Source of the DNA: Rhodanobacteraceae bacterium
Lineage (GTDB): Bacteria > Pseudomonadota > Gammaproteobacteria > Xanthomonadales > Rhodanobacteraceae
DNA length: 64,000 nucleotides
Assembly (NCBI GenBank): GCA_004299555.1
Contig: SCQU01000002.1
Location: 1-64,000 of the forward strand
Direction: 5' to 3'
This document shows positions 1 to 27,935 of the stretch, one piece after another. The notes below the pieces were generated by a model, which saw only the letters and a program-made list of their open reading frames with translations, searched no databases and was not told the origin of the DNA. The stretch's first letter is position 1. Every line of letters begins with the position of its first letter. Both the position numbers and the translations under genes were made by a program.

Positions 1-1
1 G

Positions 2-73: not shown

Positions 74-99
74 CGCACCAGGCCAACGCGTCGCAAGAT

Positions 100-118: not shown

Positions 119-425
119 GCAGCAAGTAGTGCGGCTGCTCAAGAAAGGGCTACCGACGCGTTGCGTGGCGGAAACTTGCGGTCTGTCGGTGGTATCCGTC
201 AACCGGACTGTTGCCGCTGATAGCGACCTGAAACAGGTGTGGCAGACCGCGGCATTGCTGACTCGACGTCGGAACGCGCGAAAGGCTTTTCTGTCAGCTG
301 CCAGACGGTGCCACGGGGCAACGATCAAGGAGCTGCGGCGTATCCCGGGGAGCAACTATACGTGGTTGTACCGGCACGATCGGGCGTGGCTGCGCGACGC
401 CATACCATCTTTGTGGCACAAATGA
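119..425 (+). pseudogene. TnsD-type target selector, C-terminal remnant cut by an IS
   Basis: The open frame continues without a stop from the IS end through position 425. It contains a helix-turn-helix-like stretch near its start, a basic segment RRRNARKAFL, and the signature NYTWLYRHDRAWLR. Tn7 TnsD, the protein that binds the 3' end of glmS, has the very similar YAWLYRHDRDWL. Neither the N-terminal TniQ zinc-finger part nor the region that follows this motif in Tn7 TnsD is present, so the gene looks truncated at both ends. The nominal GTG at 129 is probably an internal codon. With an intact TniQ at 9458-10744, this suggests the parent element once had two target selectors. Confidence 0.75.
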
Positions 426-5512: not shown

Positions 5513-5518
5513 TGGCCG

Positions 5519-6655
5519 TTACTTGCTGTGACGATTGCGACGATAAAACAGCGGGCGCATTGCATGCGCTTGCTCGCCCTTTCCTTCGGATCGGGCCCAC
5601 AATAATGCGACGGAATTATTCGGCGTGTTGTGATCTAGTACCAGCGGCAATGCGCACCCCGCATAACCCATGCCCAAATGCTTTACGCCGCCCTTGTCGG
5701 TCGATCTCGTCTGGATGTTGGCGTCGTAGTATTTTTTTGTCAGCGCATAAAAGTCCGGATCACCGGCAGGAGTGAGTGCGAACCCGTTGGTCAGTTGATA
5801 GCTATAGGTTACTTCCACGTTCTTAAACCAGGGTAGATCGTTGGGCGATTCATCCTTGGCTTTACGCACCGCATCGTTCAGGTGATCGATTGCCTTGTCG
5901 GTAATGATCAAGTGATGGATCACCAGGGTCCAGTGCTCGGAATGGACGTTTTTCGCGTTCTTCAAAGATCGAAGGAAGCGCATAAGCTTGCCCTTCCACA
6001 TGCGCTTGCCGTGCTCATCGACCTCCGGCCGAATGAATGACGTTCCGGAACCCGCGAAGTCGTCTACCAGGTAGATCGTGTCGAAGGTGGGATCTTGCTG
6101 TGCCTTGAGTTCGCCGAGATCCTTCGCCAATTCCTTTCTAAGGTCCTCCCACTTTTCAGTGTCGAGCTGAATACCGACCACTACTTGTTCGTTCGAGATC
6201 CTGCCAACATTGACGTGCCGAAACGAGTCCAAGCGGGCGCCATCGCTCAACCCGAGAAACAAGGTGCGTCGGCGCGCCACGTCCAACTGGTGGCGGGCGG
6301 AACCGTCGGTATAGACCTGCCAGGAACTGATGCCACGGTCATCAGCAACACTCTTGAGCAGCCGCGGGAGAACGGTTTGCGGATACATGATCTCGACCAG
6401 CCGCTCCCGTTCCACCGCGCTAATGAAAGCCAGACGGTGACGCACGAAGGCGTAGGCCGCGGGCCGGTCTTGAGGATCGAATTGCAGGAGCCATCCAAGC
6501 AGACTTTCTAAAAAGCGCATGCCCGCTAGGAAGTCTCGGTAGCTGTCGTATTTAACAGCAGAGATCAGCCGGAGCCACTGGAACTCTTCCTGAGCCTTCT
6601 CCAGTTCCCACTGCATGACCTTGCCGAGCATTCGTAGCGCAATGGTTTCATTCAT
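5519..6655 (-). CDS. Phosphoribosyltransferase-like protein (PRTase-type fold)
   Basis: A 378-residue protein carrying the type I PRTase signature TIYLVDDFAGSGTSF at about 193-207, the loop that binds PRPP in phosphoribosyltransferases. Upstream are a long helical N-terminal region and the strand VVVGIQLD; downstream is a domain without known motifs. I recall a conflict-system family called PRTase-CE that pairs with ORC/CDC6-like ATPases, and this protein may belong to it, but I cannot verify that here. It overlaps the SIS-HAD gene by 8 bp and is followed 6 bp later by the ATPase gene. Plausible roles are phosphoribosyl transfer to, or phosphorolysis of, a nucleotide. Confidence 0.75.
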   Translation of the reverse strand: MNETIALRMLGKVMQWELEKAQEEFQWLRLISAVKYDSYRDFLAGMRFLESLLGWLLQFDPQDRPAAYAFVRHRLAFISAVERERLVEIMYPQTVLPRLLKSVADDRGISSWQVYTDGSARHQLDVARRRTLFLGLSDGARLDSFRHVNVGRISNEQVVVGIQLDTEKWEDLRKELAKDLGELKAQQDPTFDTIYLVDDFAGSGTSFIRPEVDEHGKRMWKGKLMRFLRSLKNAKNVHSEHWTLVIHHLIITDKAIDHLNDAVRKAKDESPNDLPWFKNVEVTYSYQLTNGFALTPAGDPDFYALTKKYYDANIQTRSTDKGGVKHLGMGYAGCALPLVLDHNTPNNSVALLWARSEGKGEQAHAMRPLFYRRNRHSK

Positions 6656-9351: not shown

Positions 9352-9457
9352 TCCTCGTCGCAAATTTGACTGTACTTCATGACCGGCTTCGTGTCTTCAA
9401 CCCAAGGTTCGCGTGAGGTAAGCTCCGGCGCTTGGCGTTGTGTTACGAGGTCTGGTT

Positions 9458-10744
9458 ATGGTTGATTCCACACTTTCGACTTTGGTCGGCTTCATGCCGC
9501 TCCTCGGTCACGGCGATCTTTTGTACAACGCCTTTGTTTTGCGCAATCACATGTTCGAGGGCACGACCCCCGACGAAACCGTGATGGACGTGCGTGGCAC
9601 GCATGGCAAGGCGCTGCATGCCTTCGGAGATGGCGCGGAATGCATCGTGCCTCGCGTATTTGGACCGAACGCCAGCACGCGAAATGCGCTGATGCATCAC
9701 ACGTTGCTTGGTGCGTATTGTCGGGCCATGTCTCAGGTTTCCGAGTCCGCATGCATCAACTCCAAGGCGAGAAGACGCAGTACGGACGTCACACGTCACC
9801 TCGGGTTGCGCCAAGGAGCACGCGCGCTGACGACTTCGAGCCTGCGGTACTGTAGACGCTGCGTTGAGTCGGATACGGACCAGCGAGGGTTCGCGACATG
9901 GCGCGTGTTACATCAGATTCGCTCCGTGGGACGATGCCCGACCCATGGAGACTTGTTGGTGGACGAAGGTGAATCATTGCGCTCGACAAGCGATGGAACG
10001 AAACCTGCGCATTTTCGTCTGCCCGGAGAATCGGGTTGCGAAGCACCCAACAACCCGTTGCCAATGTCCGAGGGTTACGCAGCCTACTTGGAACTTTGGC
10101 GACTGGTATTCGATGGTGAGCTTCCCGTGATGCGACCGGAGCCGTGGCGTGAGTTGATGGGGAACGTTGTGGTGCGGCTCGGCGGCACACAACAAGCGCT
10201 GTACGCCATCGAACAAGTAATCGAGTCCACCTGGGAACTGCCCGTCGCCACCCTCGACGAACGCCTATCGCTGGATGGGGGCGCTTCGTTCGTCGAAGCC
10301 GAGCTGGCGCTTGTGAGCCGACCGAAGGACTTGGCACGCCGGCTGATCGTTTATGCCGCGGCGCGTCACGCCGGTGTCATCACTGAAGAACACGAGCAGT
10401 TTGCGTTAGTCCGCTCGCGGGTGGTGGTAACGAACCCTCATCCTGGAGCCGCGGCACCACAGCAGGATCTTTACCGAGAGTTGTGGGAAATCGTAGCCTC
10501 AAAAGGTTACCCGATAGCCTTGGTCGAGGCGCTACTCGAGAACGTGCGCGAAGCGGATGCGGCGAGGATGTGCGGGCTGACTCCGGGGATGATCTCGTTA
10601 CTTGTGAGGCGTGTTCCTGAGACGACGCTATTGAAGCTTGCGACCAAGGCCGGCGATGTGCCCAGGACCTCGTGGATCGGTCGGGAATTGACTCGTCGCC
10701 ATCTCAGCGTTTCGACGATTTCGAGTCCGGGTCATCCAGACTGA
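9458..10744 (+). CDS. tniQ: TniQ-family transposition target-selection protein
   Basis: About 428 residues from the ATG at 9458, which has ACGAGGT at RBS distance and aligns with the start of the duplicate; a GTG at 9440 is also open. The N-terminus VGFMPLLGHGDLLYNAF is typical of TniQ/TnsD proteins. A zinc-finger pattern follows: RYCRRC, then HQIRSVGRCPTHG, the Cys/His arrangement of the family. The C-terminal part is helical and lacks the WLYRHDRDWL signature of TnsD. TniQ recruits TnsC to targets, including in CRISPR-guided Tn7-like elements. Its last 41 bases overlap tnsC tail to tail, an unusual opposite orientation. Confidence 0.88.
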   Translation: MVDSTLSTLVGFMPLLGHGDLLYNAFVLRNHMFEGTTPDETVMDVRGTHGKALHAFGDGAECIVPRVFGPNASTRNALMHHTLLGAYCRAMSQVSESACINSKARRRSTDVTRHLGLRQGARALTTSSLRYCRRCVESDTDQRGFATWRVLHQIRSVGRCPTHGDLLVDEGESLRSTSDGTKPAHFRLPGESGCEAPNNPLPMSEGYAAYLELWRLVFDGELPVMRPEPWRELMGNVVVRLGGTQQALYAIEQVIESTWELPVATLDERLSLDGGASFVEAELALVSRPKDLARRLIVYAAARHAGVITEEHEQFALVRSRVVVTNPHPGAAAPQQDLYRELWEIVASKGYPIALVEALLENVREADAARMCGLTPGMISLLVRRVPETTLLKLATKAGDVPRTSWIGRELTRRHLSVSTISSPGHPD

Positions 10745-12188
10745 GGTCCGGCTGGTGCTTGTCAAGTCCGGCTAGGATATCGAGGGATCGCGCGGCGACG
10801 CGTAGGTCGTCCGGTCGCAACGTTTTGAGCAGTTCCCGGTTTCGCGCCTCACGTGCTGCGCTGACTCGGCGATCCCGTTTTTCAGCGCGGCGAAGTTTTT
10901 CGACGGTGGATGCTGCACTGGTCGGATCTGCAATCGGCGAACGCGGGGCTGGTGTGACGTGCTCCGTGTGCTCAGCCGCGGGCGAATCGCGCGACAAATC
11001 CGAATACCCAGCTTCGGGTGACGCAGTGCCAACCAGCCAACGAGCCATCTTGACCAACTGGACTGTCCGAGGTGACTCGCACGCGCGCCGAAAATCATCC
11101 GCAGTGAGTGTCGCTGCGGTGCCACCTCTTCGCAGTGCGATGCGTTGTGCCTCCATATACAACTTCACGAAGATTCCGGGCACGCCTGCGCTCCTTGGAT
11201 GCGCTGCATCGAGGATTTCCTCCTGATCAAGGATCTCGTCGCACAGATTGAACCGCATGATTCCGGGAACCAGCACACGCTTCCACCAGGATTCCTCGCC
11301 AGTCTTGGCACGCGACAGAGAGAAGTACCCAATGTCGGAAAAACGCCTCATCACCTGTGCTTCCTGGCTCAAACCCTCGAATGCACGAGGGTGTCCAGAG
11401 AGGATCACTGGAATGCCGACATTCAGCAGCGACAAAAAAAGCCGCACAAATTCCCAACTCAGAGGGCTCCTGCCGAAGTTGTCCCACTGCAATTCGTCCA
11501 GAAATAACATGCCAACCCGGTGCATGGTCAGCACCTTTGTGACCAGGAACAGTGATGCGTCGATGTTTCGCAACCGTAGGCGCTTGCCCGCGTAGTCTGT
11601 GCCGATAAGCGAGTCGACCCCGCCGAGGATGCGTTCAATCAGGGCGCCACGCGTGCCGTTGGTTGGAAAGTCGACTCGCAAATAAAGGATTTGAGTCAGT
11701 GTTGACCAGCCGCACGCTTCCGATCTCCCGTGTATCACGAATTGCTGGGGCGCAATCACCTCGAGCGCCCGCCGCACGATCGTCGTTTTTCCGAGACCCG
11801 TTTCGGCAGCGATGATTCCACCACTGGCAGGGTTACTCAAGGCGGGCAGAGATTGGCTTTGATGGACCGCACTTGCCAACGCGAGTTGATTGATGCGCTT
11901 CTGTTCCGCCGGAGCTAGCGGGTTGCGCCGATCGAAGCTCGCGCGAATCGCATTCTGAATGCTGGAGGCAATCTCTACGGCGTAACCCGTCGGAAAGAAA
12001 TGCTGGTCCTGCAAGCTCAAGAGGGGTTCACGCATCTCAGGGGCAGATGACTTCCAGTCGACGTTGCTCAGGGGTTCGTGATGCAGCGCCTGCGGCATCG
12101 CCGACAAGGGGATGTATGGCACAAGTGCTTCGGTCAGAGGATTACTGTTGGTTGCGGACGGGATCTCGCTAGACGTCGGCCGCTCCAT
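10704..12188 (-). CDS. tnsC: TnsC AAA+ transposition regulator
   Basis: A 494-residue AAA+ ATPase. Walker A AAETGLGKTTIV is at about 127-138 and Walker B VGMLFLDELQWDN at about 225-237; SGHPRAF around 263 looks like sensor 1. Tn7-like TnsC forms ATP-dependent filaments on DNA that link the target selector (TniQ or TnsD) to the TnsA/TnsB transposase. The basic, charged C-terminal tail of about 100 residues is where TnsC proteins usually contact TnsA/B. Its ATG overlaps the tnsB stop by one base, indicating translational coupling. The length is close to Tn7 TnsC. Confident family call. Confidence 0.9.
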   Translation of the reverse strand: MERPTSSEIPSATNSNPLTEALVPYIPLSAMPQALHHEPLSNVDWKSSAPEMREPLLSLQDQHFFPTGYAVEIASSIQNAIRASFDRRNPLAPAEQKRINQLALASAVHQSQSLPALSNPASGGIIAAETGLGKTTIVRRALEVIAPQQFVIHGRSEACGWSTLTQILYLRVDFPTNGTRGALIERILGGVDSLIGTDYAGKRLRLRNIDASLFLVTKVLTMHRVGMLFLDELQWDNFGRSPLSWEFVRLFLSLLNVGIPVILSGHPRAFEGLSQEAQVMRRFSDIGYFSLSRAKTGEESWWKRVLVPGIMRFNLCDEILDQEEILDAAHPRSAGVPGIFVKLYMEAQRIALRRGGTAATLTADDFRRACESPRTVQLVKMARWLVGTASPEAGYSDLSRDSPAAEHTEHVTPAPRSPIADPTSAASTVEKLRRAEKRDRRVSAAREARNRELLKTLRPDDLRVAARSLDILAGLDKHQPDLSLDDPDSKSSKR

Positions 12189-14407
12189 CAGAGTCCACCC
12201 AAAAACGCGTCAACGGCGTTCTCTGCCGCACTGTCACCTGTGGGGGAGGAGCTTTGAATCGGCGATGTCGAACTTGTACTTCGTGATGGTCCGGGATGGT
12301 GAATCTTTTCGACGAGCTCCTGCTCACGAATGGCGTTCCGACGCAAATTTTTGCGCTGCGAGGTTTTTGAAGGCTTCTTTTTGGCGGCTTGTATCTCCGC
12401 CTGCAGCTCGCGTGCGGCCTGGATTGTGATGGCATCTCGCCGCAGCGCGGTGTCGACCTCGTTCTGCTCTTGCTCGATTGCACGTTGGCGCCGCACTGGC
12501 GCATCCAAAACATAACGGTGTTCCATGTCGGCCACGGTATCCAAGCGCATCGCTTCACGGTCGGAGACCACGTTGGCGACACGAAGTAATCCGCGCGACG
12601 AAGGTAGCCAGAGTTCGGCGATGTTTTCAGGTTCAAAGCGGACGGAGGCGGGCAAAACCTTCCTTTCAGTGCTCGCACGAACGAAACGCGGATCTCCACG
12701 CAGTTCCTCACAGAAGAAGCGGAGATCGCCAAGATTCCGGTTGCCGTCGGGGCTCTTGACCACGATACCGTTGTATTGGATGACAGCTCGCCACTCCGGC
12801 AGTGTCAGTGCGCGTAGTTGGTCAAGGTCGCACGGGATGTCGGCGCGCTGACCGTGGTCGCGGAGCCACTTGAACACATTGATGCGAGTCGGTCGAACGC
12901 CGGCGTTGAGCATGGCCGTAGGCGCGAGGTGCTTCACCTCCTGTTGGTTGTACTCAAGGATCCAAAGAAGCAACTCACGCATGTATTCCCAGTAATTCAG
13001 CAACGCGTCGTCTGCCGGGTGCGGCATGCCCCGTTCCCGTCGCTTTCCGTGGGTGGTGCCGGCTAGTTGGTGATCGACCTTCTTGTGATCCGTACGGTGC
13101 TGTGTCTCCACGGTCCCCTTGCTGGAGCCGTGATACGTGCGCGCAAACTCCATGCCGAAGCCGACTTGTTGTTCGGCTTCAGTCACGCTCGCGGCCTTCA
13201 ATTCGCCATTATCGACGAGGTACACCCTGAAAAGCATTCCAGGCCAGTCGTCTTCGCCAATGGTGATGTCGAAGCGCTTGCACAGTTCGACTTTGTTGGT
13301 AGCAGCGCAGTAGATGGTGCGCAAACCGGTTCGGGGGCTCGGATGATCCCACCCGCAATACACTCCCATATACGCGGTGGAGCGAACGTCCATCACCAGA
13401 GAGCGTGTCATCGGCGGGAGCTTTTCCAGGCGCGAACGCATGGATGTCAGGTACACATCAGCACTCGTCGCGTCGAACATCGCGACCTGTCCCACCGCTG
13501 CAGCCAGATCACGCGCGCTGCCACCGCGATGGGTTGCCGCGGCACGGCGGCCTAACCCAAGCCGCACCGCTCTTGCGGAACTTCCGGTCGTCTTGGCGCC
13601 CCAATATCGAAAATGCCTCGGCGTCGGTCGCTGATCGGGGGGGAGAAGTTTCACATGCTTTCCGCCGAGCTCGTCGATGGTCATTGACGACCAGAACGCT
13701 ATGCAGGTCTCTGTGTAGGCCTTCTGCGGTGTCCGTTTCGGAGAGATCAGCGTGTAGCCCAGGGCCAAGCGGTCCTTGTCACGCTGCGACAGGAAGAACG
13801 GCGCCTTCGTTGTTGCGCTGTTTTGATGTGGCAGTCGGCTCTGCCTTCGCTGGTATTGCCTTCGCTGCTGGCCCTTCGCGCCGCATCGGTGCGATTCTGG
13901 AAAAAGTCCGTTGAGTGTCGAGCCGTTCGCCCAGTAAACATGAAGCGTGCGGTACACGGTTGGCGCAGATACGTGCTGGACACCTGCTTGCTCGAGTACG
14001 AGTTTGCGTATAAGAGAGTGCCTGAAGCAGCCGCCTTCCAGCTGTTCGATGATGGGCTTGATCATCGCCCAGCGTCGATCTCGTTTTTTTAGGCGGTCAC
14101 GCCGACGGAGCCTTTCGCTTTCATCCGTGATTTCGTCGACGTAGTCTTCGTCGCTCATCAGCCAATGGCCCGGAGGGGTGAATCGCGCAACTCGAAGTTC
14201 GTCCTGCGACAGAGCGGACTCGAGTGCATCCAACGCAAAGGCACGGGGGCCCAGCACGTAGCCTTTTCTGCGCCCGTTCTTTTGTGACTGTGGCAATGGA
14301 ATGCACCACGCAATTGAACGCGCCTTGTCTACGGCGAGAACGCGGTGAGGACCGGACAAGCGGGTTGACTGCAACGTCGGGGTAAGGATCTGGTTAACGA
14401 TCAGCAT
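12188..14407 (-). CDS. tnsB: TnsB DDE transposase
   Basis: A 739-residue Mu/retroviral-integrase-type transposase. Candidate catalytic residues are D312 in VAMFDATSAD, D399 in VYLVDNGEL and E434 in GTVETQHR, a full DDE set with the spacing expected for TnsB. The N-terminal 200 residues hold the DNA-binding region (HTH-like LIRKLVLEQAGVQHVSAPTV), followed by a basic stretch rich in Arg and Gln. TnsB binds the end repeats and cuts and joins the 3' ends. It overlaps tnsA by 7 bases and tnsC by one. No damage is visible, so it appears functional. Confidence 0.92.
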   Translation of the reverse strand: MLIVNQILTPTLQSTRLSGPHRVLAVDKARSIAWCIPLPQSQKNGRRKGYVLGPRAFALDALESALSQDELRVARFTPPGHWLMSDEDYVDEITDESERLRRRDRLKKRDRRWAMIKPIIEQLEGGCFRHSLIRKLVLEQAGVQHVSAPTVYRTLHVYWANGSTLNGLFPESHRCGAKGQQRRQYQRRQSRLPHQNSATTKAPFFLSQRDKDRLALGYTLISPKRTPQKAYTETCIAFWSSMTIDELGGKHVKLLPPDQRPTPRHFRYWGAKTTGSSARAVRLGLGRRAAATHRGGSARDLAAAVGQVAMFDATSADVYLTSMRSRLEKLPPMTRSLVMDVRSTAYMGVYCGWDHPSPRTGLRTIYCAATNKVELCKRFDITIGEDDWPGMLFRVYLVDNGELKAASVTEAEQQVGFGMEFARTYHGSSKGTVETQHRTDHKKVDHQLAGTTHGKRRERGMPHPADDALLNYWEYMRELLLWILEYNQQEVKHLAPTAMLNAGVRPTRINVFKWLRDHGQRADIPCDLDQLRALTLPEWRAVIQYNGIVVKSPDGNRNLGDLRFFCEELRGDPRFVRASTERKVLPASVRFEPENIAELWLPSSRGLLRVANVVSDREAMRLDTVADMEHRYVLDAPVRRQRAIEQEQNEVDTALRRDAITIQAARELQAEIQAAKKKPSKTSQRKNLRRNAIREQELVEKIHHPGPSRSTSSTSPIQSSSPTGDSAAENAVDAFLGGL

Positions 14408-15318
14408 GACGTCCTCCCGAACAACCGGTTTCGAAGTTCTTCACGGCATGCGTGGCCTCCAGGCAACAATGGCGACGCCATGGACAAGGGCTGCTGGAGA
14501 TCGACGTCGATGTCCAGCCTCCACATCGCGAGCTGGGCGGCAAACTGGGTCTGCACTGGGGACCAATCGAGGCCGCGGCTCGCGTCATCGATCGCCTCGC
14601 TTGCCGCTACGGTGAATGCCGTTTTGCGCACACGGTCCAGGAAAACTTGATATGCGTATGAGGCGACGATTTGGTCGATCGCTGCGCGTGGGCGGAGGGG
14701 CGCCAGCCACTCGAGCTGTCGTACCAGCGCAGCAGGCACTTGTTCCGGGTAAACCAGACGATGCTCGATGCCGGCGACGTCGCAATACCGTCGATCCAGC
14801 TCAAGGCGCTCCATGATTCGATCGGACGGCTGCGCGCTCAGTACGAGATCAAGTGGTTTGCAGCTGATGCCGAGGAGTTGAGTTGGCGCGTCGGCTTCCC
14901 TTTGGAACGTCACCATCAAATCGATCGTAAGAATGCGGTCGACCGACAACCCTGGGTAGCAATAGACCGGGATGCCTGCTGCATGCGCAACGTCCGTCAT
15001 CCCTGGGTGTCGCGGCCACTCCCTTGCACTGTCGACCTCAGCAAGTGGGCTGGGATGCGGCCATGGCCACAGAGGAAATTGTTCTCTCACGTCTTGGGCG
15101 CCCGCCCACCACACGAGGTGACTGACGGCGCGCTCACCACGCGACAAAAAGTAGCAGTGCCTCTGCACCATCGGCATTCGTACGTAGCTGATGTTGCTGC
15201 AGGTCGACGAGGCGGATTTGTGCGGCATCAACCAGGGTCGGTAACGGTCCCCCGTTCCGCTCCCCCGCCCGCTGGCAATAAGACGATCGATGAACTCACG
15301 CGTGACTTTCGGTCGCAT
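14401..15318 (-). CDS. tnsA: TnsA endonuclease
   Basis: I place the start at the ATG at 15318: GGAGG lies ten bases upstream, and MRPKVTREFIDRLIASGRG matches the usual TnsA N-terminus. This gives 305 residues; an upstream GTG at 15427-15429 is in frame. Candidate catalytic residues are E62 (LSRGERA), D133 (TIDLMV) and K154 (ISCKPLD), the E-D-K set of the restriction-enzyme-like TnsA fold, which cuts the 5' ends so that the element moves by cut-and-paste. The C-terminal domain is longer than a minimal TnsA and probably binds TnsC and DNA. First gene of tnsA-tnsB-tnsC. Confidence 0.9.
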   Translation of the reverse strand: MRPKVTREFIDRLIASGRGSGTGDRYRPWLMPHKSASSTCSNISYVRMPMVQRHCYFLSRGERAVSHLVWWAGAQDVREQFPLWPWPHPSPLAEVDSAREWPRHPGMTDVAHAAGIPVYCYPGLSVDRILTIDLMVTFQREADAPTQLLGISCKPLDLVLSAQPSDRIMERLELDRRYCDVAGIEHRLVYPEQVPAALVRQLEWLAPLRPRAAIDQIVASYAYQVFLDRVRKTAFTVAASEAIDDASRGLDWSPVQTQFAAQLAMWRLDIDVDLQQPLSMASPLLPGGHACREELRNRLFGRTSC

Positions 15319-15434
15319 AACTTGTGCACCTCCGTGCCGACCGCGCCGTGGTGCGGCTGCGGTTTGTTCAGGCAACACGACATCGTCCAGACGCTGTCTG
15401 GGCTTGATCGCGGATAGGGAAAGGTGCACAATGC

Positions 15435-17269: not shown

Positions 17270-18445
17270 TCAACGTGACTTCCAGCTACCGGTCTGGTCG
17301 TAGTTCAACGATCGCTCGTAGCCGAACGCGTTCCAGACCGAGTCGAAAGCTGGGCGCATCACCGTCGCAACATCCGGTGGCCACTCGTCGACCGAGATCT
17401 CAGGAATGATGAGCGTGTCACGATCGGCATATCGAGGACCGTCGATCGCGTACCGCCAGGTGTTTACTCCGAGGCTGTACCCAGCCACGCCTACGCAAGA
17501 AAGAAAAATGTACAGTGGCGGAGCAAAACCAAGATCCCGCATGGCTTGCAGGTAATTGGAGAGAGCCTGCAAGGTATCTTGCTCAAACGAGATGCTCGGG
17601 ATGATCGTATCGGGCTCATGGCCATGCGCCCGATAAGCCGCCACGGATTCAATGACACCGTTGCGGAATAGCTGTGCGTAGGATTCCGATTTGCCGTCAG
17701 ATACTTCCGCGTAAGTCAAGCGTCCGTCGAGGTTGTAGCGCTGACTCCAACCTCGTGCGCCAGGCGGTGCAATTCTCAGCAGACTCTGCGATTGACCGGT
17801 AATCTCTATGTGACGGTCACTGGTCATGCTTTCCAAAGGGATGACGTGGAGCACGATGCGTGCGCCTCTGTCCAACGGTACAGGCGTGTTTCCGCCCCCG
17901 ATCATCATCAAGCGATCGGCTCGAAAACCACGGATACGTTCGGCGACAGTCTGCGAAAGCGTGAATGCCTGCCGCAGTTCGCCAACATCGAGCCGGTAGG
18001 AGCCGGACGCGTTGCGCCCGTAGAAATGGGCATGGCCTCCGGTAGTCACGCGGTGCGGGGCGTTCCAACTTTTGGCTACGCGTACAAGAAGAGCCTCACC
18101 GCCGGCTGCAAGCGGGACGAACTGGTATTGGACGATACCGGTGAGTCGCGGTTCGACGCCATCGGCACAGAGACTTTCGAATCGCTGCCGTACCAGATCC
18201 TGCGACGGCATTTGTAGTGCGTGTAACGCATCTGCGCACCCGCCGTCTTCGGCAATCCCATAAATTAGATCGCCGCCCTGCGTGTTGGCGAACGCGGTGA
18301 CTTCACGCAGGAACTTTACGTTCCCGCCATTGCCCGAATCGGGTAGCTGTTGTTTGTATTCCAGCTGCCGACTTTCAGGGGTGCGTGATGCGATCAACGC
18401 CTGCAGGTCTGCTTCAGTGATGGATTCAACAGGCTTGGCGATCAC
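17270..18445 (-). CDS. Schlafen/AlbA_2-domain putative DNA-binding protein
   Basis: A 391-residue protein with a GTG start and AAGGA about nine bases upstream. The N-terminal 160 residues form an AlbA_2 (Schlafen-type) domain: RQLEYKQQLP at about 26-35, FLREVTAFANTQGGDLIYGI at about 45-64, and HRVTTGGHAHFYGRNASGS at about 130-148. The C-terminal half does not match a family I know and has no membrane segments. AlbA_2 domains bind nucleic acid or nucleotides and occur in several anti-phage systems. It follows the reverse transcriptase by 66 bp on the same strand, as the last gene of the hsdR-M-S-RT operon, so a shared function is likely. Confidence 0.8.
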   Translation of the reverse strand: MIAKPVESITEADLQALIASRTPESRQLEYKQQLPDSGNGGNVKFLREVTAFANTQGGDLIYGIAEDGGCADALHALQMPSQDLVRQRFESLCADGVEPRLTGIVQYQFVPLAAGGEALLVRVAKSWNAPHRVTTGGHAHFYGRNASGSYRLDVGELRQAFTLSQTVAERIRGFRADRLMMIGGGNTPVPLDRGARIVLHVIPLESMTSDRHIEITGQSQSLLRIAPPGARGWSQRYNLDGRLTYAEVSDGKSESYAQLFRNGVIESVAAYRAHGHEPDTIIPSISFEQDTLQALSNYLQAMRDLGFAPPLYIFLSCVGVAGYSLGVNTWRYAIDGPRYADRDTLIIPEISVDEWPPDVATVMRPAFDSVWNAFGYERSLNYDQTGSWKSR

Positions 18446-18511: not shown

Positions 18512-20575
18512 TCATGGTGCGATGTCACTCCTTGCCAGCTCGCTGACTGCCGCCACCAGCAATCGCCTTGATCGAGCTAGGAACCGAAAAGGAATTTTAC
18601 CGGTTGGTCGTCCGGAGTTTCGAACAACTGGATGCGAGCCCATGCTTTCGAAACGCCGTTGATGGACTTCACTGGCAAGCTTGTACGTCATCGGGTACTT
18701 GGTGGCGAACTTGGACGATGCGGAACCAAGAGCGCTTCCGATATGGCCTAAGTTGTATTTCCCGATTCCACCGTCTGCATGAAATAATGCGTCGAGCAAG
18801 CGGTCATTGAACACGTCGAGCAGGTTGACGAAGCTCGTGATGTTGACCTTCGAAGCCGCGACAGCTTCCACAATCTGCAGCTCGGCGTACTTGTAGTCGC
18901 GCCCGAACAGGCATCGCCAGTTCAATATCGCGATAGTCCTGTCTAGCTTGGAGAGCGAGTGCTGGATGCCGCAGAATTTTGCTGTTGACCGGCGAATCAG
19001 GCCAACCTCGCGCAACATGAGCGCGGCCCTTTTGTTCCAGTCGCGCCGTCGTCCGGAGGGTACATGGTCAATCTGGAATCCGATCCAAGCAGCCGCAAGC
19101 GCCGGCACGCCACGGACGTCATGCACCCCCGTATCGACGACGCTCTGCGATGTAGCAAGGCTGACGGTTTTGCCGTTCGTCGCCTCAATCAATTTCGCGC
19201 GCACCCACCATGATGGCGCCACCTTGCAGGCGTAGCGGATCTGCCCGTCAGTAAGTGCCCCCGCGCGTATCAGGAACAGCCCTGCCGCGACCATCAGATC
19301 AGCTTGCATGGACTTCGGCGCCCATAGCCCCTTGAGGTATTTGGTCAAAGCCCTGTCTTGCGTTTGCGGAAGCCGACCGTCGGCCGCCGAAATGAATTCC
19401 GCGCACACCGACTGGTAAAGATCGCTGTTCTTTATCGTCACCACGACGTGTTCGGCAGCCACGCGCGGCAGCTTCCCATAGCGACTCAGGTACCTGCAGA
19501 TGTTGCGATAAACCTCGGGGTGCCTCTCAAGCACCTTCCACAGGCGTTCCGTCAGCTTCGCGGATGGTTGCGCATTTGCCAGCAGGTACTTGAATCGAGT
19601 GGGGTTCGCGATACGGTGCCGCGGCGTCAGTTCGCGAAGCCTGGCAAGCAGGCGCTTCTGATCGACGAGCCGAAAGCTGATGGATGGTTCCGGCGGGTTC
19701 GATACGGTCTTGAGCTCCTCATCGATACTTGTAACGCGGTGGATATCGATTTTGCTGCCCTGCGGAAACAGGCCGATGTCCTTGCTCTTGCGGTCCAGCG
19801 CGACCAGCAGCCTTCGCAGCGTGTGCTCGTCGCGGGCGAACAGGCGGATGTCATCGACGTAACGTAGATATCGGAACTCCGAGTGTTTCACGTTGAGGTC
19901 ATCGAAGTACGATAAAACGACTTCCGACAGCAGCCCCGACGAAAGCGGCCCTTGCGGAATGCCGTGGCTATGGAAGATGCCTTTGTCGGTCGCGGCCCAC
20001 GTACCCAGCCAGTCCGTAAGTTTTCGACAGAAATCGGGCTCGAATCCCAGCCTGGCGAGGAAGTGGCGCAGCACGCTGTGATCGAGGCTGTCGTAACAAG
20101 CCGTCAAATCGAAACTCGCCCCGTAGATGAACCTGTCGTCGACGGCCTTGCGCGTTGTGTCGTTGTATGCCTTGTATCCAGCACTCCACTTGCGGTAGAA
20201 CCATGCCGACGACTTGCCGGCGTACAGATGCCCGAAGACTGACTTCAAGTATCGTTGCCGAACCTTGGGGAACAGGCGCTCCGCCACGAGATTGACAGCG
20301 GCCTGATAGACGATCTGATCCTCCACGCTGAGCAATGAATAGGGGCGAAGCACGCCCGACGGCTTCGGAAACAGGATCTTTGTGGCCGGGTCCGGGTCGT
20401 ATATCCCTCGCTTCAGGCGGTCGGCGACATCATTGAGCAGCGCGTCCTCTGCCGCAGCGAAATGCTGGTACAGGGATCGAAAGTACGATTTGTAGCTCGC
20501 ATCGGCGTTCGACTGAATCCAGCGCCACGCCCGCCGGAGATTGTCCAACTTCCGCAGTTGGGTAAGCGCGGTCAT
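18512..20575 (-). CDS. Reverse transcriptase with a large C-terminal extension, restriction-operon associated
   Basis: I use the ATG at 20575, nine bases after the hsdS stop; an in-frame TTG at 20581 is also open. In 689-residue numbering the RT core shows SFDLTACYDSLDHSV (motif A, about 156-170), GIPQGPLSSGLLSE (motif B, about 207-220) and YLRYVDDIRLFA (motif C, 238-249; catalytic DD at 243-244). About 350 residues follow the RT core with no motif I recognise. No maturase (X) or HNH domain is apparent, so it is not a typical group II intron protein. It resembles the unknown-group/defence-associated RTs. Placement straight after hsdS implies co-expression with the type I restriction system. 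Confidence 0.85.
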   Translation of the reverse strand: MTALTQLRKLDNLRRAWRWIQSNADASYKSYFRSLYQHFAAAEDALLNDVADRLKRGIYDPDPATKILFPKPSGVLRPYSLLSVEDQIVYQAAVNLVAERLFPKVRQRYLKSVFGHLYAGKSSAWFYRKWSAGYKAYNDTTRKAVDDRFIYGASFDLTACYDSLDHSVLRHFLARLGFEPDFCRKLTDWLGTWAATDKGIFHSHGIPQGPLSSGLLSEVVLSYFDDLNVKHSEFRYLRYVDDIRLFARDEHTLRRLLVALDRKSKDIGLFPQGSKIDIHRVTSIDEELKTVSNPPEPSISFRLVDQKRLLARLRELTPRHRIANPTRFKYLLANAQPSAKLTERLWKVLERHPEVYRNICRYLSRYGKLPRVAAEHVVVTIKNSDLYQSVCAEFISAADGRLPQTQDRALTKYLKGLWAPKSMQADLMVAAGLFLIRAGALTDGQIRYACKVAPSWWVRAKLIEATNGKTVSLATSQSVVDTGVHDVRGVPALAAAWIGFQIDHVPSGRRRDWNKRAALMLREVGLIRRSTAKFCGIQHSLSKLDRTIAILNWRCLFGRDYKYAELQIVEAVAASKVNITSFVNLLDVFNDRLLDALFHADGGIGKYNLGHIGSALGSASSKFATKYPMTYKLASEVHQRRFESMGSHPVVRNSGRPTGKIPFRFLARSRRLLVAAVSELARSDIAP

Positions 20576-20584
20576 CAGCAACCG

Positions 20585-21742
20585 TCACGCAGGCCGACGC
20601 GCAAACAGGCGTTCGAGGGTGGCGGGGATCAATACGGCGCTGGCTTCCCTCAAGGCGGCGTGGCGTGCCTTGAGTGCGGCAATGGTGGATTGGAGGGTGA
20701 CGAAGGCCTGTTGAGCGACGAGCGGAGGGATGGGGATCTCGGTGGCGGCCAGTTTCTCAACGCCTAGCGTCCGGTTGCGGCCTGCTCCTCCCGGTGACGC
20801 CGCACGAATCTTTTCAAGCCCCTCTGGACTCAACAGGTAGTAATGGACAAACTCAGTGTGTGCGAAACCCGGATTCACTACGCAAGTCATGAACCGGTGC
20901 GAACCAAAACGGCCGTGGTCATCGGCGCTTGCAATCGCGATAGCGCCCTCCCAAGCGAACACGTTGGAGAAAAGCAGGTCACCTGCTTCGATGCGAAACA
21001 GACGTTTGGTGCCGACCTCCAGGCCGGAGATTGCTGGTTTGTGGAAGGTCCCCTTCCCGAATGAGCGAATACCGAGCTCCGGGTAGCTCGCCTCGGGATC
21101 AATAGGTACTACACGGCGGACCAGCGGCGCAACTTCCGCCATAGGACGATACGTTGCCCCAGCGATTGTCTGCTGGAATTGCTGGGCCAGCAAGCGATCG
21201 GCATCGGCCTCGATGGCTCCGAGGTGCGCGGTCAGTTGGCGGGTCTTGTCGGCCAGCGCATCGAGGTAGGCGGTGATTGCGTGTTGCTCATTCAGCGACG
21301 GCAGCGGGATTTCAAGCCTAAGGAAGAACCTTTCCTTGAAACGGTTACGTGTCGTTGGTGTACTACCTGTGCAATCTTCTTCCACACGCTGCCACGTGGC
21401 GGGGAGCTGAAACCAACGATTGAGGAAGGCCGTATCAAGCCGCGTGTTATCAACATGAAATAGCGGGAACTCATTGGATACATAGCATCCATGCAAGTCT
21501 GAACCAATCAGGCCGAACGCACCACGCCACGCGAAAAGTCGACTGTAAATGAAGTCGCCCGCTTCAACGCGGTGCAGCCGCGAGGCCGAAGTTTCCGTAC
21601 CAGCAACGGTCTCGCGATGGAAGGCACCGTTACCTTCAAGGCGCACACCAAGCAACCGATACTCACCATCTGGCACCACAGCTTCGCCACGATCGACCTG
21701 CGTCACCAACTCACCGAGCGGAACGCATGGCCACTCACTCAT
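20585..21742 (-). CDS. hsdS: Type I restriction-modification specificity subunit HsdS
   Basis: A 385-residue protein with two target-recognition domains. Each is followed by a helical spacer: FRLEIPLPSLNEQHAITAYL near 150-170 and TEIPIPPLVAQQAFVTLQ near 335-355, the conserved PLP..EQ..I signature ending each TRD. HsdS directs the methylase and nuclease to a split DNA target. The ATG overlaps the hsdM stop by 4 bases. Both TRDs look complete. The reverse transcriptase gene begins 9 bp after its stop codon. Confidence 0.9.
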   Translation of the reverse strand: MSEWPCVPLGELVTQVDRGEAVVPDGEYRLLGVRLEGNGAFHRETVAGTETSASRLHRVEAGDFIYSRLFAWRGAFGLIGSDLHGCYVSNEFPLFHVDNTRLDTAFLNRWFQLPATWQRVEEDCTGSTPTTRNRFKERFFLRLEIPLPSLNEQHAITAYLDALADKTRQLTAHLGAIEADADRLLAQQFQQTIAGATYRPMAEVAPLVRRVVPIDPEASYPELGIRSFGKGTFHKPAISGLEVGTKRLFRIEAGDLLFSNVFAWEGAIAIASADDHGRFGSHRFMTCVVNPGFAHTEFVHYYLLSPEGLEKIRAASPGGAGRNRTLGVEKLAATEIPIPPLVAQQAFVTLQSTIAALKARHAALREASAVLIPATLERLFARRPA

Positions 21743-23298
21743 GCCTTCACCTCGACCATCAGCTTCTCGATCTCGCCAAGGAGCTTCTGCGCCTCGACCT
21801 CATGCCCGCGCATTTGCGCGACAAGCTCTGCGGGGTCGATGTGCTCCAGTTCTTGTCTGGCGATCGGATTCTTGAGGTCGAGGTTCCAGCCGCGCGCCTC
21901 GACCTCGACGGCAGTGGTCCTCCATGCGTGCGGGCCTTCCTTACGATTCTGCCACCAGGCTAGGCAGTCGGCGAACTCCTCGTACTGCAACGGCGCGGTC
22001 TTGGTGTATTTCCTGCGTCCTTCGGGCTGCGGCAATTCGTAGAACCAGATGTCTTGGGTATGGCCGTTTCGATCGAAGAAGAGCAGGTTGGCCGGGATAT
22101 CCGTGTAAGGCGCGAAAACCCCTTCAGGCAACCGCACGACCGTGTGCAGGTTGAACTCGGTGAGCAAGTGCTGCTTGATCAAAGCCGGAACAGCATTGAC
22201 ATCAAACAATGTGCCATTGGGTACTACCACTGCGGCGCGGCCGCCCTTGTCGGGACCGAAGCCCGCTACACGCAACTTGCGCATGATGTATTGCAGGAAC
22301 AGCAGTGCGGTTTCACTGGTTTGCAGATTGGGCGGAAAGTTGGCCTTGATACCGGCTTCTTCTTCGCCGCCGAACGGTGGATTGGTGAGGATCACATCCA
22401 CGCGTTCGGCGTGGCCGATCTCGTTGAGGCGCTGTTGCAGGGTGTTGCCGTAGCTGATTTGCGGAGATTCAACGCCGTGCAGCAGCAGGTTCATCTGGGC
22501 CAGCATGTACGGCAACGGCTTGGCTTCCTGCCCGTACAGAGTTTCGTGTTGCAACTGACGGCGCTGGGCCGGGGTCTTCACCTGTGGCTTCAGGTATTCG
22601 TAGGCGCCAACCAGAAACCCGCCGGTACCGCAAGCTGGGTCAAGTAGCATTTCGCCGAGCTGGGGTGCCGTGACTTCCACCATGAATCGCACGATCGGGC
22701 GCGGGGTGTAAAACTCTCCCGAGTCGCCGGCCGCGTCGCGCATCTCGCGCAACATGGATTCGTACAGGTGCGAGAGCGTGTGGACTTCGTCACTGCTGGC
22801 AAAGTGGATCCCGTTCACCTTGTTGAGGATGTCGCGCAACAAGTAGCCGGAGACCATACGGTTCTGCACACCGCGGAACACGTTGGCGATCACGGCGCGC
22901 TGCCCGTTGTGGTTTCCACGTTCGCCCTGGGCCCGCAGGTACGCAAACAGACCGGGGCCACGACTGCCATCGGGTCGCGTGGCCTCGTCATGGTTGATGA
23001 AGGCGAGTAATTCGTCGCCGTTGATGCCATCGGGTTTGGCGGCCCAGTCACGCCAGCGGTAAGGGCTTTCGATCAGCGGCACATAGGGTTTTCCGTCGAG
23101 CTCGGCTTCTTCCTCGTGGCGCTGCTCGAGATCATCAAGGAACTTCAGGAACATCACCCAAGTGAGCAACGGCAACCGGTCAGCGTCACCGTTGAGCCCC
23201 TTGTCCTTCCGCAGAATCTGTCGTGCGGACTTGATCAGGGCGGAAAGCTGTTGTGCGGTAGTGAGTTTGGCCTTGGTAGTTTTCTTTGTGCGTGGCAT
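21739..23298 (-). CDS. hsdM: Type I restriction-modification DNA methyltransferase HsdM
   Basis: A 519-residue N6-adenine methyltransferase. Motif I is LLDPACGTGGFLVGA (about 218-232) and the catalytic motif IV is VILTNPPFGGEEE (about 304-316). The N-terminal helical domain typical of HsdM precedes them. It methylates adenine in the HsdS-specified target and, with HsdS, forms the modification complex. It starts 15 bp after hsdR and overlaps hsdS by 4 bases. The full length and intact motifs suggest activity. Confidence 0.93.
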   Translation of the reverse strand: MPRTKKTTKAKLTTAQQLSALIKSARQILRKDKGLNGDADRLPLLTWVMFLKFLDDLEQRHEEEAELDGKPYVPLIESPYRWRDWAAKPDGINGDELLAFINHDEATRPDGSRGPGLFAYLRAQGERGNHNGQRAVIANVFRGVQNRMVSGYLLRDILNKVNGIHFASSDEVHTLSHLYESMLREMRDAAGDSGEFYTPRPIVRFMVEVTAPQLGEMLLDPACGTGGFLVGAYEYLKPQVKTPAQRRQLQHETLYGQEAKPLPYMLAQMNLLLHGVESPQISYGNTLQQRLNEIGHAERVDVILTNPPFGGEEEAGIKANFPPNLQTSETALLFLQYIMRKLRVAGFGPDKGGRAAVVVPNGTLFDVNAVPALIKQHLLTEFNLHTVVRLPEGVFAPYTDIPANLLFFDRNGHTQDIWFYELPQPEGRRKYTKTAPLQYEEFADCLAWWQNRKEGPHAWRTTAVEVEARGWNLDLKNPIARQELEHIDPAELVAQMRGHEVEAQKLLGEIEKLMVEVKA

Positions 23299-23313
23299 GG
23301 AATCGGGTTCTTT

Positions 23314-25701
23314 TTACGGATACAGCACCGCCTGAAGGCGAGTGACAGCGTCCCGCATTGCGGGCACGCCGCCGAAGTGGCGATTGGCGATTTCGGAAGG
23401 GCTGCCGAAGCGGTCGAAGGGTTGCACCTTCAACAGGTCCGACAGGTGGCTGAACTGAATGATGCCGCGTTCGACGTAGCGATCCAGCAATAGGTCGAGG
23501 ATTTCGCGCGCGGTGTCGCCGTATTGCGCAAAGATGTCCGGCACCTGCTTGCGCGCCTGCTCCGCGCGTTGCCGACGCGTAAGCAGAGGCGCGTTCCACG
23601 CCAGGTGGCACAGCAGGTCAAATGGATCCGCATCGGGCTGGCCGCTCGCGGAGGCAAGTTCGTCAAAATTGATCTGGCGATCGGTCAGTTCCCGCAGCAC
23701 CTCGGCACGGGTGTCGGGTTTGGCCCACGCGGCGTGAAGATCGTCGCGATTGGGATACATCGAACGAACCGTGCGTGCGGAGTAGTCGGTATAGCGCACC
23801 ACCTGCAACTTCTTGCCATCGGCATCGAGGTCGTAAACCAGGTGGCCGATCACTTCGACTTCGCCGCCGTCGACGTAGAACTTGTGAGGCTCGTCGGATG
23901 CCTCGCTGGCGATTTCGGCATCGAGTGTGCCAGGTTCGGCCGTGATGTCGTGTTCGGGCGGCGCTTCCTGCTCGGCTACGGTCTCCTCGGCTTCAACTTC
24001 ACCCTTGTCATTGATGGTGACCTGCTCGATGCGCGCCGGCTCGCCGTCGAAATCAGGGTCAGCGAAATGCTGGGTGGCGGTGCCAGTGAAGTCGATGATG
24101 TTGAAGAACTCTTTGCCGTAATCTACGCGTAGACGGGTACCGCGGCCGATGATCTGCTTGAATTCGACCGGGGAACCTACCACCCGGGCCAGCGCTATGT
24201 TCTTGACCGTTTCGGCATCCACACCGGTACTGAGCAATTGCGAGGTAGTGAGAATGGTGGGCGTGGGTTTGTCCACATCCTGAAAGTCACTGAGGTGTCC
24301 AAGGCCGATACCGCCTTCCGCGGCAGTAACACGACAGACGTAATCGGGATACCTCTGCACCAAGTCGCTGTTCAAGTTGATCAGCGCCTGTCGCATTTCC
24401 GCGGCGTGTTCCTGGTCCACGCAGAACACGATGGTCTTCGCGAAGCGGTCGGTGGACTTCAGAAACTCGGTCAGGTGCTTCGCCATCGCCTGCGTGCGGG
24501 AGCGCATGGCAATGACCCTCTCGAAGTCCTTGGTCTGGTACTCATCGTCGGGGATCGGGCGCCCGTAACGGTCGCGTTCGTCCCTGTTGGGCCGCCAACC
24601 CGCCGCATCGATGCTGGTAATGACGCGATGCACGCGGTACGGCGCCAGAAAGCCGTCGTCGATGCCTTGGCGCAAGCTGTAGGTGTAGACCGGGTTGCCG
24701 AAATATTCATAACTGTCGCGCGATTCCTCGCGCAGTGGCGTTGCGGTCATGCCGAATTGGATGGCCGGCGAAAAGTATTCCAGCACCTTGCGCCAACTGC
24801 TGTCGTCGCGAGCAGAGCCGCGGTGGCACTCGTCCACGACGATCAAGTCGAAAAAGTCGGGACGGTACAGTCGGAACAGGTCGTCCTCGCCACCGTTGGT
24901 CAATGACTGGTAGATGCCGAAATACATGTCGCGCGCCAAGCTGGGATCGGCGCTGGTTATCTTGTGTCGGGCATCACCGAAGTGGATGAAGTCCTTGTCC
25001 TTCGGATCGTCCACGAGGATGTTGCGGTCGGCCAGGAACAGGATTTTCGGGCGACGATGTTCGCCCGCTCGGTTCCAGCGGCTATTCCACAGTTTCCAGC
25101 ACACTTGGAAGGCCACGCTGGTCTTGCCGGTGCCCGTGGCCAGCGTCACCAGTACGCGTTTTTGCCCCTTGAGGATGGCCTCGATCACGCGCCGTATGGC
25201 GATGTCCTGGTAGTAGCGAGGAATCTTGCCCGAGGTGAGGTTGTAGGGCTCCAGCCATTGATTCGCCGCCGGTTCGGGTAGCTGGACCTCGCCGTTCAGG
25301 CGCCGCCAAAGTTCATCGGGGCTCGGGTAATGATCGACCTCGCGCTCGGCGCCGGCGGTGTAATCGATTTCGATGATGCGCCGACCGTTGGTGGCGTAGG
25401 CAAAGCGCAGGCCAAGCATCTCGGCATACTCGCGTGCCTGTTGCACACCGTTCTCGGCGGGCAAGCCAATTTCTTTGGCCTCGACGACGGCAATCGGGAA
25501 ATCACGCTGCAGATACAGGATGTAGTCGGCGCGCCGTAGCTTGGCGCGACGCGCCTTGCCACCGGCCAGCAGGATGCGACCGGCTGTGATGGCGTGCTGC
25601 TCACCAATGGCATGGGGTGCCTGCCCCCAGCCCGCGCGCTGCAGCGCAGGTGTGACGAACTCGCGGCAGGTGTCTGCCTCGGTGAGCACCGAGTCGTTCA
25701 C
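23314..25701 (-). CDS. hsdR: Type I restriction endonuclease subunit HsdR
   Basis: I prefer the GTG at 25701, giving NDSVLTEADTCREFVTPAL at the N-terminus, as in EcoEI-type HsdR proteins; a longer frame opens at 25812 but adds an atypical 37 residues. The product is about 795 residues. A PD-(D/E)XK nuclease motif (RADYILYL...VVEAKE) is near residues 55-75, Walker A is LATGTGKTSVA, the DECH box is LIVVDECHRG, and GMTATP is motif III. HsdR translocates and cleaves unmodified DNA. An acidic linker (GEVEAEETVAEQEAPPEHD) precedes the C-terminal domain. It is the first gene of the hsdR-M-S-RT-AlbA_2 operon and is nearest the element end. Confidence 0.92.
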   Translation of the reverse strand: MNDSVLTEADTCREFVTPALQRAGWGQAPHAIGEQHAITAGRILLAGGKARRAKLRRADYILYLQRDFPIAVVEAKEIGLPAENGVQQAREYAEMLGLRFAYATNGRRIIEIDYTAGAEREVDHYPSPDELWRRLNGEVQLPEPAANQWLEPYNLTSGKIPRYYQDIAIRRVIEAILKGQKRVLVTLATGTGKTSVAFQVCWKLWNSRWNRAGEHRRPKILFLADRNILVDDPKDKDFIHFGDARHKITSADPSLARDMYFGIYQSLTNGGEDDLFRLYRPDFFDLIVVDECHRGSARDDSSWRKVLEYFSPAIQFGMTATPLREESRDSYEYFGNPVYTYSLRQGIDDGFLAPYRVHRVITSIDAAGWRPNRDERDRYGRPIPDDEYQTKDFERVIAMRSRTQAMAKHLTEFLKSTDRFAKTIVFCVDQEHAAEMRQALINLNSDLVQRYPDYVCRVTAAEGGIGLGHLSDFQDVDKPTPTILTTSQLLSTGVDAETVKNIALARVVGSPVEFKQIIGRGTRLRVDYGKEFFNIIDFTGTATQHFADPDFDGEPARIEQVTINDKGEVEAEETVAEQEAPPEHDITAEPGTLDAEIASEASDEPHKFYVDGGEVEVIGHLVYDLDADGKKLQVVRYTDYSARTVRSMYPNRDDLHAAWAKPDTRAEVLRELTDRQINFDELASASGQPDADPFDLLCHLAWNAPLLTRRQRAEQARKQVPDIFAQYGDTAREILDLLLDRYVERGIIQFSHLSDLLKVQPFDRFGSPSEIANRHFGGVPAMRDAVTRLQAVLYP

Positions 25702-25988
25702 TGGAACGACCGCATTAGTTCTGGGCCTTCCGGCTGAAGTGGCACCGTACCTGTCGATCCACGAACTACCCCATTCCCCGCGTAGCTTCGTGAATCCTAA
25801 CCGGAAACGCACCGCACGGTTGCTTCGGCGATCTAACGCGCGAGCGCGTTTGCAACCCCGTCGTCAGACTTGCGCGCCATCTGGGCTGGATATCAGCGTC
25901 CTGTCCGCTCGACGCCGTACCCAAGCTATCTCCAGTCGCCTAGTCAAAACTGGTGGGCGCGCGCAGATGCCCGGATGGCGGTGGCGTT

Positions 25989-26080
25989 GTTAAGATCTAT
26001 TTCGTTACGAGATCGCCGCGATTCGGACGATTGTTAAATACTATTTTGTCACGTTAAAAACTATTTGCGCTCTTACCACA
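25989..26080 (-). repeat. Tn7-like element terminus with three TnsB-site-like repeats, beside glmS
   Basis: Read from glmS inward (minus strand), the end is TGTGGTAA (26080-26073). It is followed directly by two abutting 20-bp units, GAGCGCAAATAGTTTTTAAC (26072-26053) and GTGACAAAATAGTATTTAAC (26052-26033), a 24-bp spacer, and a third unit GTAACGAAATAGATCTTAAC (26008-25989). Tn7 ends begin TGTGG and contain GACAAAATAG...AACT-type TnsB sites, as recalled from the Tn7 sequence. The flanking GGTCC at 26081-26085 is the expected 5-bp target duplication; its partner is outside the window. The end lies 22 bp from the glmS stop, as expected for a TnsD-directed insertion. Confidence 0.88.
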
Positions 26081-26102
26081 GGTCCACACCGCGCAGGTCG
26101 CG

Positions 26103-27935
26103 TTATTCGACCGTCACGGATTTCGCGAGGTTGCGCGGCTGGTCGACGTCGGTGCCGCGCAGCACGGCGACGTGATAGGCAAGGAGTTGCAGCGGCAGCG
26201 TGAGCACCGCGGGCGCGACCAGGATTCCATCCGAGCGCACCTTCAGCAGTTGGCCGCGGTTGCCGTTCAAGGACAGGTCGGCGTCGGCGTCGGCGAACAC
26301 GAACAGCTGGCCGCCACGCGCGCGGACCTCTTCAAGGTTGGATTTCAGCTTTTGCAGCAACTGGTTGTTGGGCGCCACGGCGATCACCGGCATGTCTTCG
26401 TCGACCAGCGCCAGCGGGCCATGTTTCAGCTCGCCCGCGGGATAGGCTTCGGCGTGGATGTAGGAAATTTCCTTCAGCTTCAGCGCGCCCTCCATCGCGA
26501 CCGGGTACTGCGCGCCGCGGCCAAGGAAGAGCGCGTGGTGCTTGTCGACGAATGCCTCGGCGAGTTTGGCGATGGCGGGCTCGAGCGTCAGCGCATCCCC
26601 CAGCGCGTGCGGCAGCGCCGTCAGCTCGCCGACCAGTGCCGCCAGCCGCGCGGGAGCGGCGCCGCGCAGGCGCGCGAGTTCCAGCGTCAGCAGTGCCAGC
26701 GCGGTCAGCTGCGTGGTGAAGGCCTTGGTGGACGCAACACCAATCTCCGGGCCGGCACGGGTCATCAGCACAAGATCCGCTTCGCGCACCAGGCTCGATT
26801 CGGGCACGTTGCAGATGGCGCCGGCGCCAAGGTATCCGTGGTTGCGCGCATCGCGCAGCGCCGCCAGCGTGTCGGCGGTCTCGCCCGATTGCGAGATCGC
26901 GAGGAACAGCGTGTTGGGCGGCACGACCACGTGCCGGTAGCGGTATTCGCTGGCGACCTCGACCTGGCAGGGGATGCCGGCGATGTCTTCCAGCCAGTAG
27001 CGGGCCACGAGGCCGGCGTGGTAGCTGGTGCCGCAGGCGACGATGTGGACCTGGGCGACGCGTTTGAGCAGCGCGTCGGCATCGACGCCGAAAATGTTGG
27101 GCAGCACGCGGCCGTCATGGATGCGGCCCTCCAGGGTGCTGGCGACGGCCTCCGGCTGTTCGCAGATTTCCTTCAGCATGTAGTGCCGGAACTGCCCGCG
27201 CTCGACCGCGTCGGCCGACAGGTCGCTTTCGCGCAGGCTGCGGCTGGCGGCGCGGCCGTCGGCGGCGATGATCGTCAACGAATCGGGGGTGATCTCGGCG
27301 ACGTCGCCGTCGTCCAGGTACACGATCTTGTTGGTGACCTGGATGAGCGCCTGCACGTCCGACCCGAGGAAGTGCTCGCCGATGCCGACCCCGACGCAGA
27401 GCGGGCTGCCGCGCCGCGCGCCGATGACGTGACCGGGGCGGTCGCGGTGCAGCACCGCAATGGCGTAGGCGCCGCGCAGGCGCTGGGTGGCGGCGATGAC
27501 CGCGGCGCGCAAACCCATGCCGCCCGCCATCAACTGGTGGATCAGGTGTGCGATGACTTCGGTGTCGGTTTCCGAGGTGAACACGTACCCCGCGGCTTCG
27601 AGTTGGGTGCGGAGTTCCGCGTGGTTTTCGATGATGCCGTTGTGGACGACCGCCACCGCGTCGCGCGAGACCTGGGGGTGCGCGTTGGCTTCGTTTGGCG
27701 CGCCGTGGGTGGCCCAGCGGGTGTGGGCGATGCCGGTGAGGCCGTGCAGCGGCGAAGCCTTGAGCAGTTCGTCCAGGCGCGCGACCTTGCCGGGCGTGCG
27801 CGCGCGCAGCAACTGGCCGTGTGCCAGCACCGCGAGTCCGGCCGAGTCGTAGCCGCGGTATTCGAGTGCGTGCAAGCCGGCCATGAGGAGCGGGACGACA
27901 TCGCGCTGGGTGCAGGCGGCAACGATTCCACACAT
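26103..27935 (-). CDS. glmS: Glutamine--fructose-6-phosphate aminotransferase GlmS
   Basis: A 610-residue protein of standard length. The N-terminus MCGIVAACTQ exposes the catalytic Cys2 of the class II glutaminase domain. Two SIS domains follow (CGTSYHAGLVA and AISQSGETADT near 300-350; LGRGAQYPVAMEGALKLKEIS near 465-485), and the C-terminus DQPRNLAKSVTVE is the conserved isomerase tail. It makes glucosamine-6-phosphate from fructose-6-phosphate and glutamine, the first step to UDP-GlcNAc. Its 3' end is the recognition site for Tn7 TnsD, and the Tn7-like island begins 22 bp downstream without disturbing the coding sequence. Confidence 0.97.
   Translation of the reverse strand: MCGIVAACTQRDVVPLLMAGLHALEYRGYDSAGLAVLAHGQLLRARTPGKVARLDELLKASPLHGLTGIAHTRWATHGAPNEANAHPQVSRDAVAVVHNGIIENHAELRTQLEAAGYVFTSETDTEVIAHLIHQLMAGGMGLRAAVIAATQRLRGAYAIAVLHRDRPGHVIGARRGSPLCVGVGIGEHFLGSDVQALIQVTNKIVYLDDGDVAEITPDSLTIIAADGRAASRSLRESDLSADAVERGQFRHYMLKEICEQPEAVASTLEGRIHDGRVLPNIFGVDADALLKRVAQVHIVACGTSYHAGLVARYWLEDIAGIPCQVEVASEYRYRHVVVPPNTLFLAISQSGETADTLAALRDARNHGYLGAGAICNVPESSLVREADLVLMTRAGPEIGVASTKAFTTQLTALALLTLELARLRGAAPARLAALVGELTALPHALGDALTLEPAIAKLAEAFVDKHHALFLGRGAQYPVAMEGALKLKEISYIHAEAYPAGELKHGPLALVDEDMPVIAVAPNNQLLQKLKSNLEEVRARGGQLFVFADADADLSLNGNRGQLLKVRSDGILVAPAVLTLPLQLLAYHVAVLRGTDVDQPRNLAKSVTVE

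Follow-up and report, generated by a model that had tools for sequence, protein, structure and literature searches.

A question raised by this locus is why a cluster of repeats stands next to the essential gene glmS in the genome of a Rhodanobacteraceae bacterium, and whether it marks the edge of a mobile element. The window, a stretch of 64,000 nucleotides from contig SCQU01000002.1 (assembly GCA_004299555.1), was analysed together with the remaining contigs of the genome and with related genomes. A preliminary description, made from the letters alone, had proposed a Tn7-type transposon end at the glmS attachment site. We reach the same reading with a probability of about 95%: these repeats mark where a Tn7-like transposon ends on its right side, 24 bp beyond the stop codon of glmS. 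The evidence consists of a partner array at the other end of the element, a CAGGT target-site duplication, and related elements that also end there.

The right end contains three perfect AAATAGNNNTTAAC sites, all on the minus strand (Table 1). Their layout is as first described: two 20-bp repeats abut one another, and the third repeat starts 44 bp away from the second. Allowing up to two mismatches, 1.6 occurrences of AAATAGNNNTTAAC are expected by chance in the whole window, and three perfect copies inside 78 bp are not due to chance. Only one other AAATAGNNNTTAAC cluster was found in the 29 contigs of the genome. It lies on a contig designated C22, on the plus strand and inverted with respect to the right end, and its sites at 151092, 151160, and 151213 have one, zero, and one mismatches to AAATAGNNNTTAAC, respectively. 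Apart from the three right-end sites, the site at 151160 is the sole perfect match in the genome. Inverted arrays of ~20-bp transposase sites at both ends are a hallmark of Tn7-like elements (PMC8649781), and such arrays are present at both ends here. The inverted partner end that the preliminary description called for thus exists, from C22:151080 onward, with three sites in the opposite orientation.

The sequences at the two ends define the boundaries of the element. On the plus strand, C22 reads CAGGT/TGGTAAGTGACGAAATAATTTTTAAC and the window reads CTTACCA/CAGGT/CCACACC, where slashes mark the junctions. The two termini (TGGTAAG/CTTACCA) are perfect 7-bp inverted repeats, and CAGGT is duplicated outside them. 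Direct repeats of 5 bp typify Tn7 and related elements (PMC11406308). With the insertion sequence excluded, the element has a length of 27,366, of which 1,414 bases are on C22 and 25,952 in the window, so that it amounts to roughly 27.4 kb plus one IS66-type copy.

The left and right ends are split between two contigs. C22 stops 1.5 kb past its three-site cluster, and its last 119 bases open with GTAAGCG immediately after GCAGCAAG. The window starts with the opposite end of an element of that type, which closes with CGCTTAC and is followed by GCAGCAAG. From the GTAAGCG ends and the 8-bp duplication, we take this insertion sequence to be a member of the IS66 family. A TniQ/TnsD frame on C22, the 5' part of tnsD (C22:151266-152493), runs on in frame into the window and stops at 425. 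Since GCAGCAAG lies on both sides of the insertion sequence and tnsD continues in frame across it, C22 and the window appear to be contiguous. It is a strong inference from a draft assembly, deduced rather than read, that the window follows the end of C22 with one IS66-type copy between them. Three other copies of the insertion sequence were read, and their 8-bp flanks all differ from GCAGCAAG. The assembly contains five copies of the right end of the insertion sequence, which accounts for the contig break. tnsD is uninterrupted in all four relatives that carry a related element.

Table 1. Features of the transposon and its attachment site in the window.
Feature	Position	Strand	Basis
IS66-type element, right end, inserted in tnsD	1..118	+	GCAGCAAG duplication at 119-126
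tnsD 3' part, split by IS66-type element	119..425	+	in-frame join; homologous to unsplit tnsD in four relatives
Cargo: CARF6-type, ORC-CDC6-like (below cut-off), PRTase-CE, and HAD hydrolase proteins	2478..8555	-	
Second tniQ, convergent with tnsC	9440..10744	+	PF06527, E 7.8e-9; conserved in relatives
tnsC (TniB/AAA ATPase)	10704..12188	-	Pfam; conserved in relatives
tnsB, DDE residues D312, D399, E434	12188..14407	-	Tn7 TnsB 7pik, E 3.8e-29
tnsA	14401..15429	-	Tn7 TnsA 1t0f, E 7.7e-11
Cargo: Schlafen AlbA_2-domain protein	17270..18445	-	PF04326, E 5.7e-12
Cargo: UG19-type defence reverse transcriptase	18512..20581	-	PADLOC RT_UG19, E 3.8e-168
Cargo: type I restriction-modification hsdR, hsdM, hsdS	20585..25812	-	
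Right-end TnsB-type site 3, innermost, AAATAGATCTTAAC	25989..26002	-	motif search
Right-end TnsB-type site 2, AAATAGTATTTAAC	26033..26046	-	motif search
Right-end TnsB-type site 1, outermost, AAATAGTTTTTAAC	26053..26066	-	motif search
Transposon right terminus, TGGTAAG read inward; last transposon base 26078	26072..26078	-	perfect inverted repeat of C22:151080-151086
CAGGT 5-bp target-site duplication	26079..26083	.	matched at C22:151075-151079
glmS, intact, attachment-site gene	26103..27935	-	

The genes between the ends are those of a Tn7-like element. TnsB is a DDE transposase of the Tn7 branch; its three catalytic DDE residues are intact, align with those of Tn7 TnsB, and are invariant in five homologues. 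It is accompanied by a TnsC ATPase and a TniQ/TnsD target selector, and the C22 half of tnsD matches both the TnsD and TniQ models (PF15978 and PF06527). The insertion lies a short fixed distance past the stop codon of an intact glmS. No match to TnsE was found among the island ORFs scanned, several small ones of which have no assignment. At 15538, ahead of tnsA, there is a TnsB-like site with two mismatches; it lacks a good counterpart in the relatives and was discounted as a chance match.

Among the defence systems carried by elements of this kind, restriction-modification is the commonest, and defensive reverse transcriptases have been reported as well (PMC8649781). Both are carried here, along with a Schlafen-type protein. 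The operon at 2478-8555 is a candidate conflict system. GC content is ~0.57-0.62 in the island, lower than the ~0.64-0.73 in the rest of the window, and it shifts at the glmS boundary.

The same set of tns genes was found in four related elements, in Dyella jiangningensis SBZ 3-12, Rhodanobacter sp. MP7CTX1, Frateuria sp. STR12, and Dyella ginsengisoli LA-4. This TnsB is rare: five of the 233 family genomes have it, counting the source genome, and the source genome alone was positive among 369 genomes sampled across the class. A profile search of genome contigs for TnsB gave nine loci, and a single-sequence search of genome contigs gave no match. Compared to the source element, the close relatives have a TnsB that is only 39-42% identical, a site consensus of TAATAGANATTCCAAC instead of AAATAGNNNTTAAC, and different cargo. 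D. jiangningensis, Rhodanobacter, and Frateuria, the three in which glmS is on the same contig as the right end, share the right-end plan and terminus of the source element at glmS. Their right ends start 23, 26, and 21 bp past the glmS stop, respectively, and their sites are spaced by 20 and 44 bp, except that Frateuria has 34 in place of 44, which brings the third site 10 bp (one helical turn) closer. The TGGT terminus is invariant in four right ends. Both ends were located in two relatives: the D. jiangningensis element is 37.8 kb with an exact CGGCA duplication, and the Rhodanobacter element is 55.5 kb with an exact CCAAC duplication. One contig of D. jiangningensis carries two identical copies of a stretch of at least 80 kb that includes glmS and the transposon; either the region is truly duplicated or the second copy is an artefact of assembly. 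More distant TnsB carriers are Variovorax, Paraburkholderia, and an Acidobacteria bin. Where these more distant genomes have a TniQ match linked to tnsB, glmS is found on another contig. This split fits a close TnsD sending the element to glmS, and is suggestive only.

Could the repeats instead belong to glmS, as a conserved terminator or regulatory array? They do lie directly downstream of the gene, but none of 15 relatives without the element has AAATAGNNNTTAAC-type repeats within 300 bp of glmS, and an inverted copy of the array sits at the far end of the island on C22. This reading is refuted. The exact boundary given in the preliminary description, a TGTGG terminus 22 bp past the glmS stop and a GGTCC duplication, did not hold up. 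TGTGG resembles the terminus of Tn7, but neither it nor GGTCC is found at the left end, and the exact 5-bp repeat flanking both ends is CAGGT instead. The true terminus, TGGTAAG, ends two bases further in, and the distance from glmS is corrected to 24 bp. A TGGT terminus also yields exact 5-bp duplications in three independent elements. The TGTGG/GGTCC boundary is therefore refuted, although the claim to have fixed the right boundary to the base was correct in position to within two bases.

Another possibility is that the end beside glmS belongs to a separate, perhaps end-only element, and that the tns genes and the C22 end form a second element in tandem. In Rhodanobacter, a second right end directly abuts the left end (G200:232400-232536), which shows tandem Tn7-like insertions at glmS, so such an arrangement does occur in this family. 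The ~10 kb of cargo between the right end and tnsA could also be seen as separating two elements. However, the relatives likewise have 11-20 kb of cargo in this interval, and no other end-like array lies between the two ends. Both ends share a single motif, their terminal repeats are perfect, and they are flanked by the same exact CAGGT duplication. The shared duplication counts against a tandem arrangement, which is strongly disfavoured and which we consider very improbable.

For a single Tn7-like transposon, homology suggests that TnsB binds the AAATAGNNNTTAAC sites and that TnsA and TnsB, as in Tn7, would cut and join at TGGT...ACCA. TnsD on the 3' end of glmS would have directed the insertion via TnsC, again judging from homology, and glmS would have stayed intact because insertion directed in this way falls behind it. 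Since tnsD is split by the insertion sequence, the element can probably no longer home to glmS unaided. The source copy is thus probably grounded by the loss of TnsD, and any further homing to glmS would require an outside source of TnsD. The second TniQ, together with TnsABC, may still serve another target.

All four relatives have a lone TnsB-type site in a fixed orientation, 77-100 bp before the start of the tnsD alignment (G200:260818, G091:195571, G132:8139, and G106:16041). These sites have 1-5 mismatches to the end-site consensus, share the core AAATCCAA, and are located away from the mapped left ends. In the source element, the innermost left-end site is at a similar distance before tnsD. 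The lone site is a possible operator. A tentative and rather unlikely extension is that TnsB represses tnsD-tniQ and so couples target choice to the level of transposase.

None of the relatives searched showed a strict empty site sharing the left flank of the element. A dehydratase-like gene that is behind glmS in several relatives is located at C22:131050-132015, 19 kb to the left of the transposon, and the segment at C22:132.5-145.8 kb is at another location in relatives. Comparison of gene order indicates that the left flank (C22:131050-151079) is rearranged relative to the genus, so left-flank synteny cannot serve as an empty-site test. Across the genus, the distance from glmS to the dehydratase-like gene ranges from almost none to ~50 kb. 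Given this variability, the region behind glmS looks like a general insertion hotspot.

Like Tn7, the source element is inserted a short fixed distance behind glmS with a 5-bp duplication, has arrays of TnsB-type sites that are spaced differently at its two ends, and encodes homologues of TnsA, TnsB, TnsC, and TnsD. In contrast to Tn7, its TnsA and TnsB are only distantly related, its right end has three sites rather than four overlapping ones, its terminus is TGGT with a different site sequence, it has a second TniQ and no TnsE among the island ORFs scanned, and its cargo occupies the interval from the right end to tnsA. Loci with tniQ and tnsD in tandem have been described as a class, with 1,048 examples (PMC10293859). 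The source element resembles these dual tniQ-tnsD transposons in having two TniQ-domain genes along with tnsABC, but its tniQ and tnsD are separated by cargo and an insertion sequence interrupts its tnsD. In the four relatives, tniQ and tnsD are adjacent, as in the published description. Dual tniQ-tnsD Tn7-like transposons that home to glmS and carry defence genes are an established kind, and the source element is a diverged branch of them.

Both boundaries of a defence-carrying transposon are set here to the base, across a contig gap. Within the Rhodanobacteraceae, a glmS-homing branch of Tn7-like elements uses a site sequence of its own and terminates in TGGT. The locus provides a clean example of defence genes stacking behind glmS, and of a Tn7-like element that was probably grounded when an insertion sequence entered its targeting gene.
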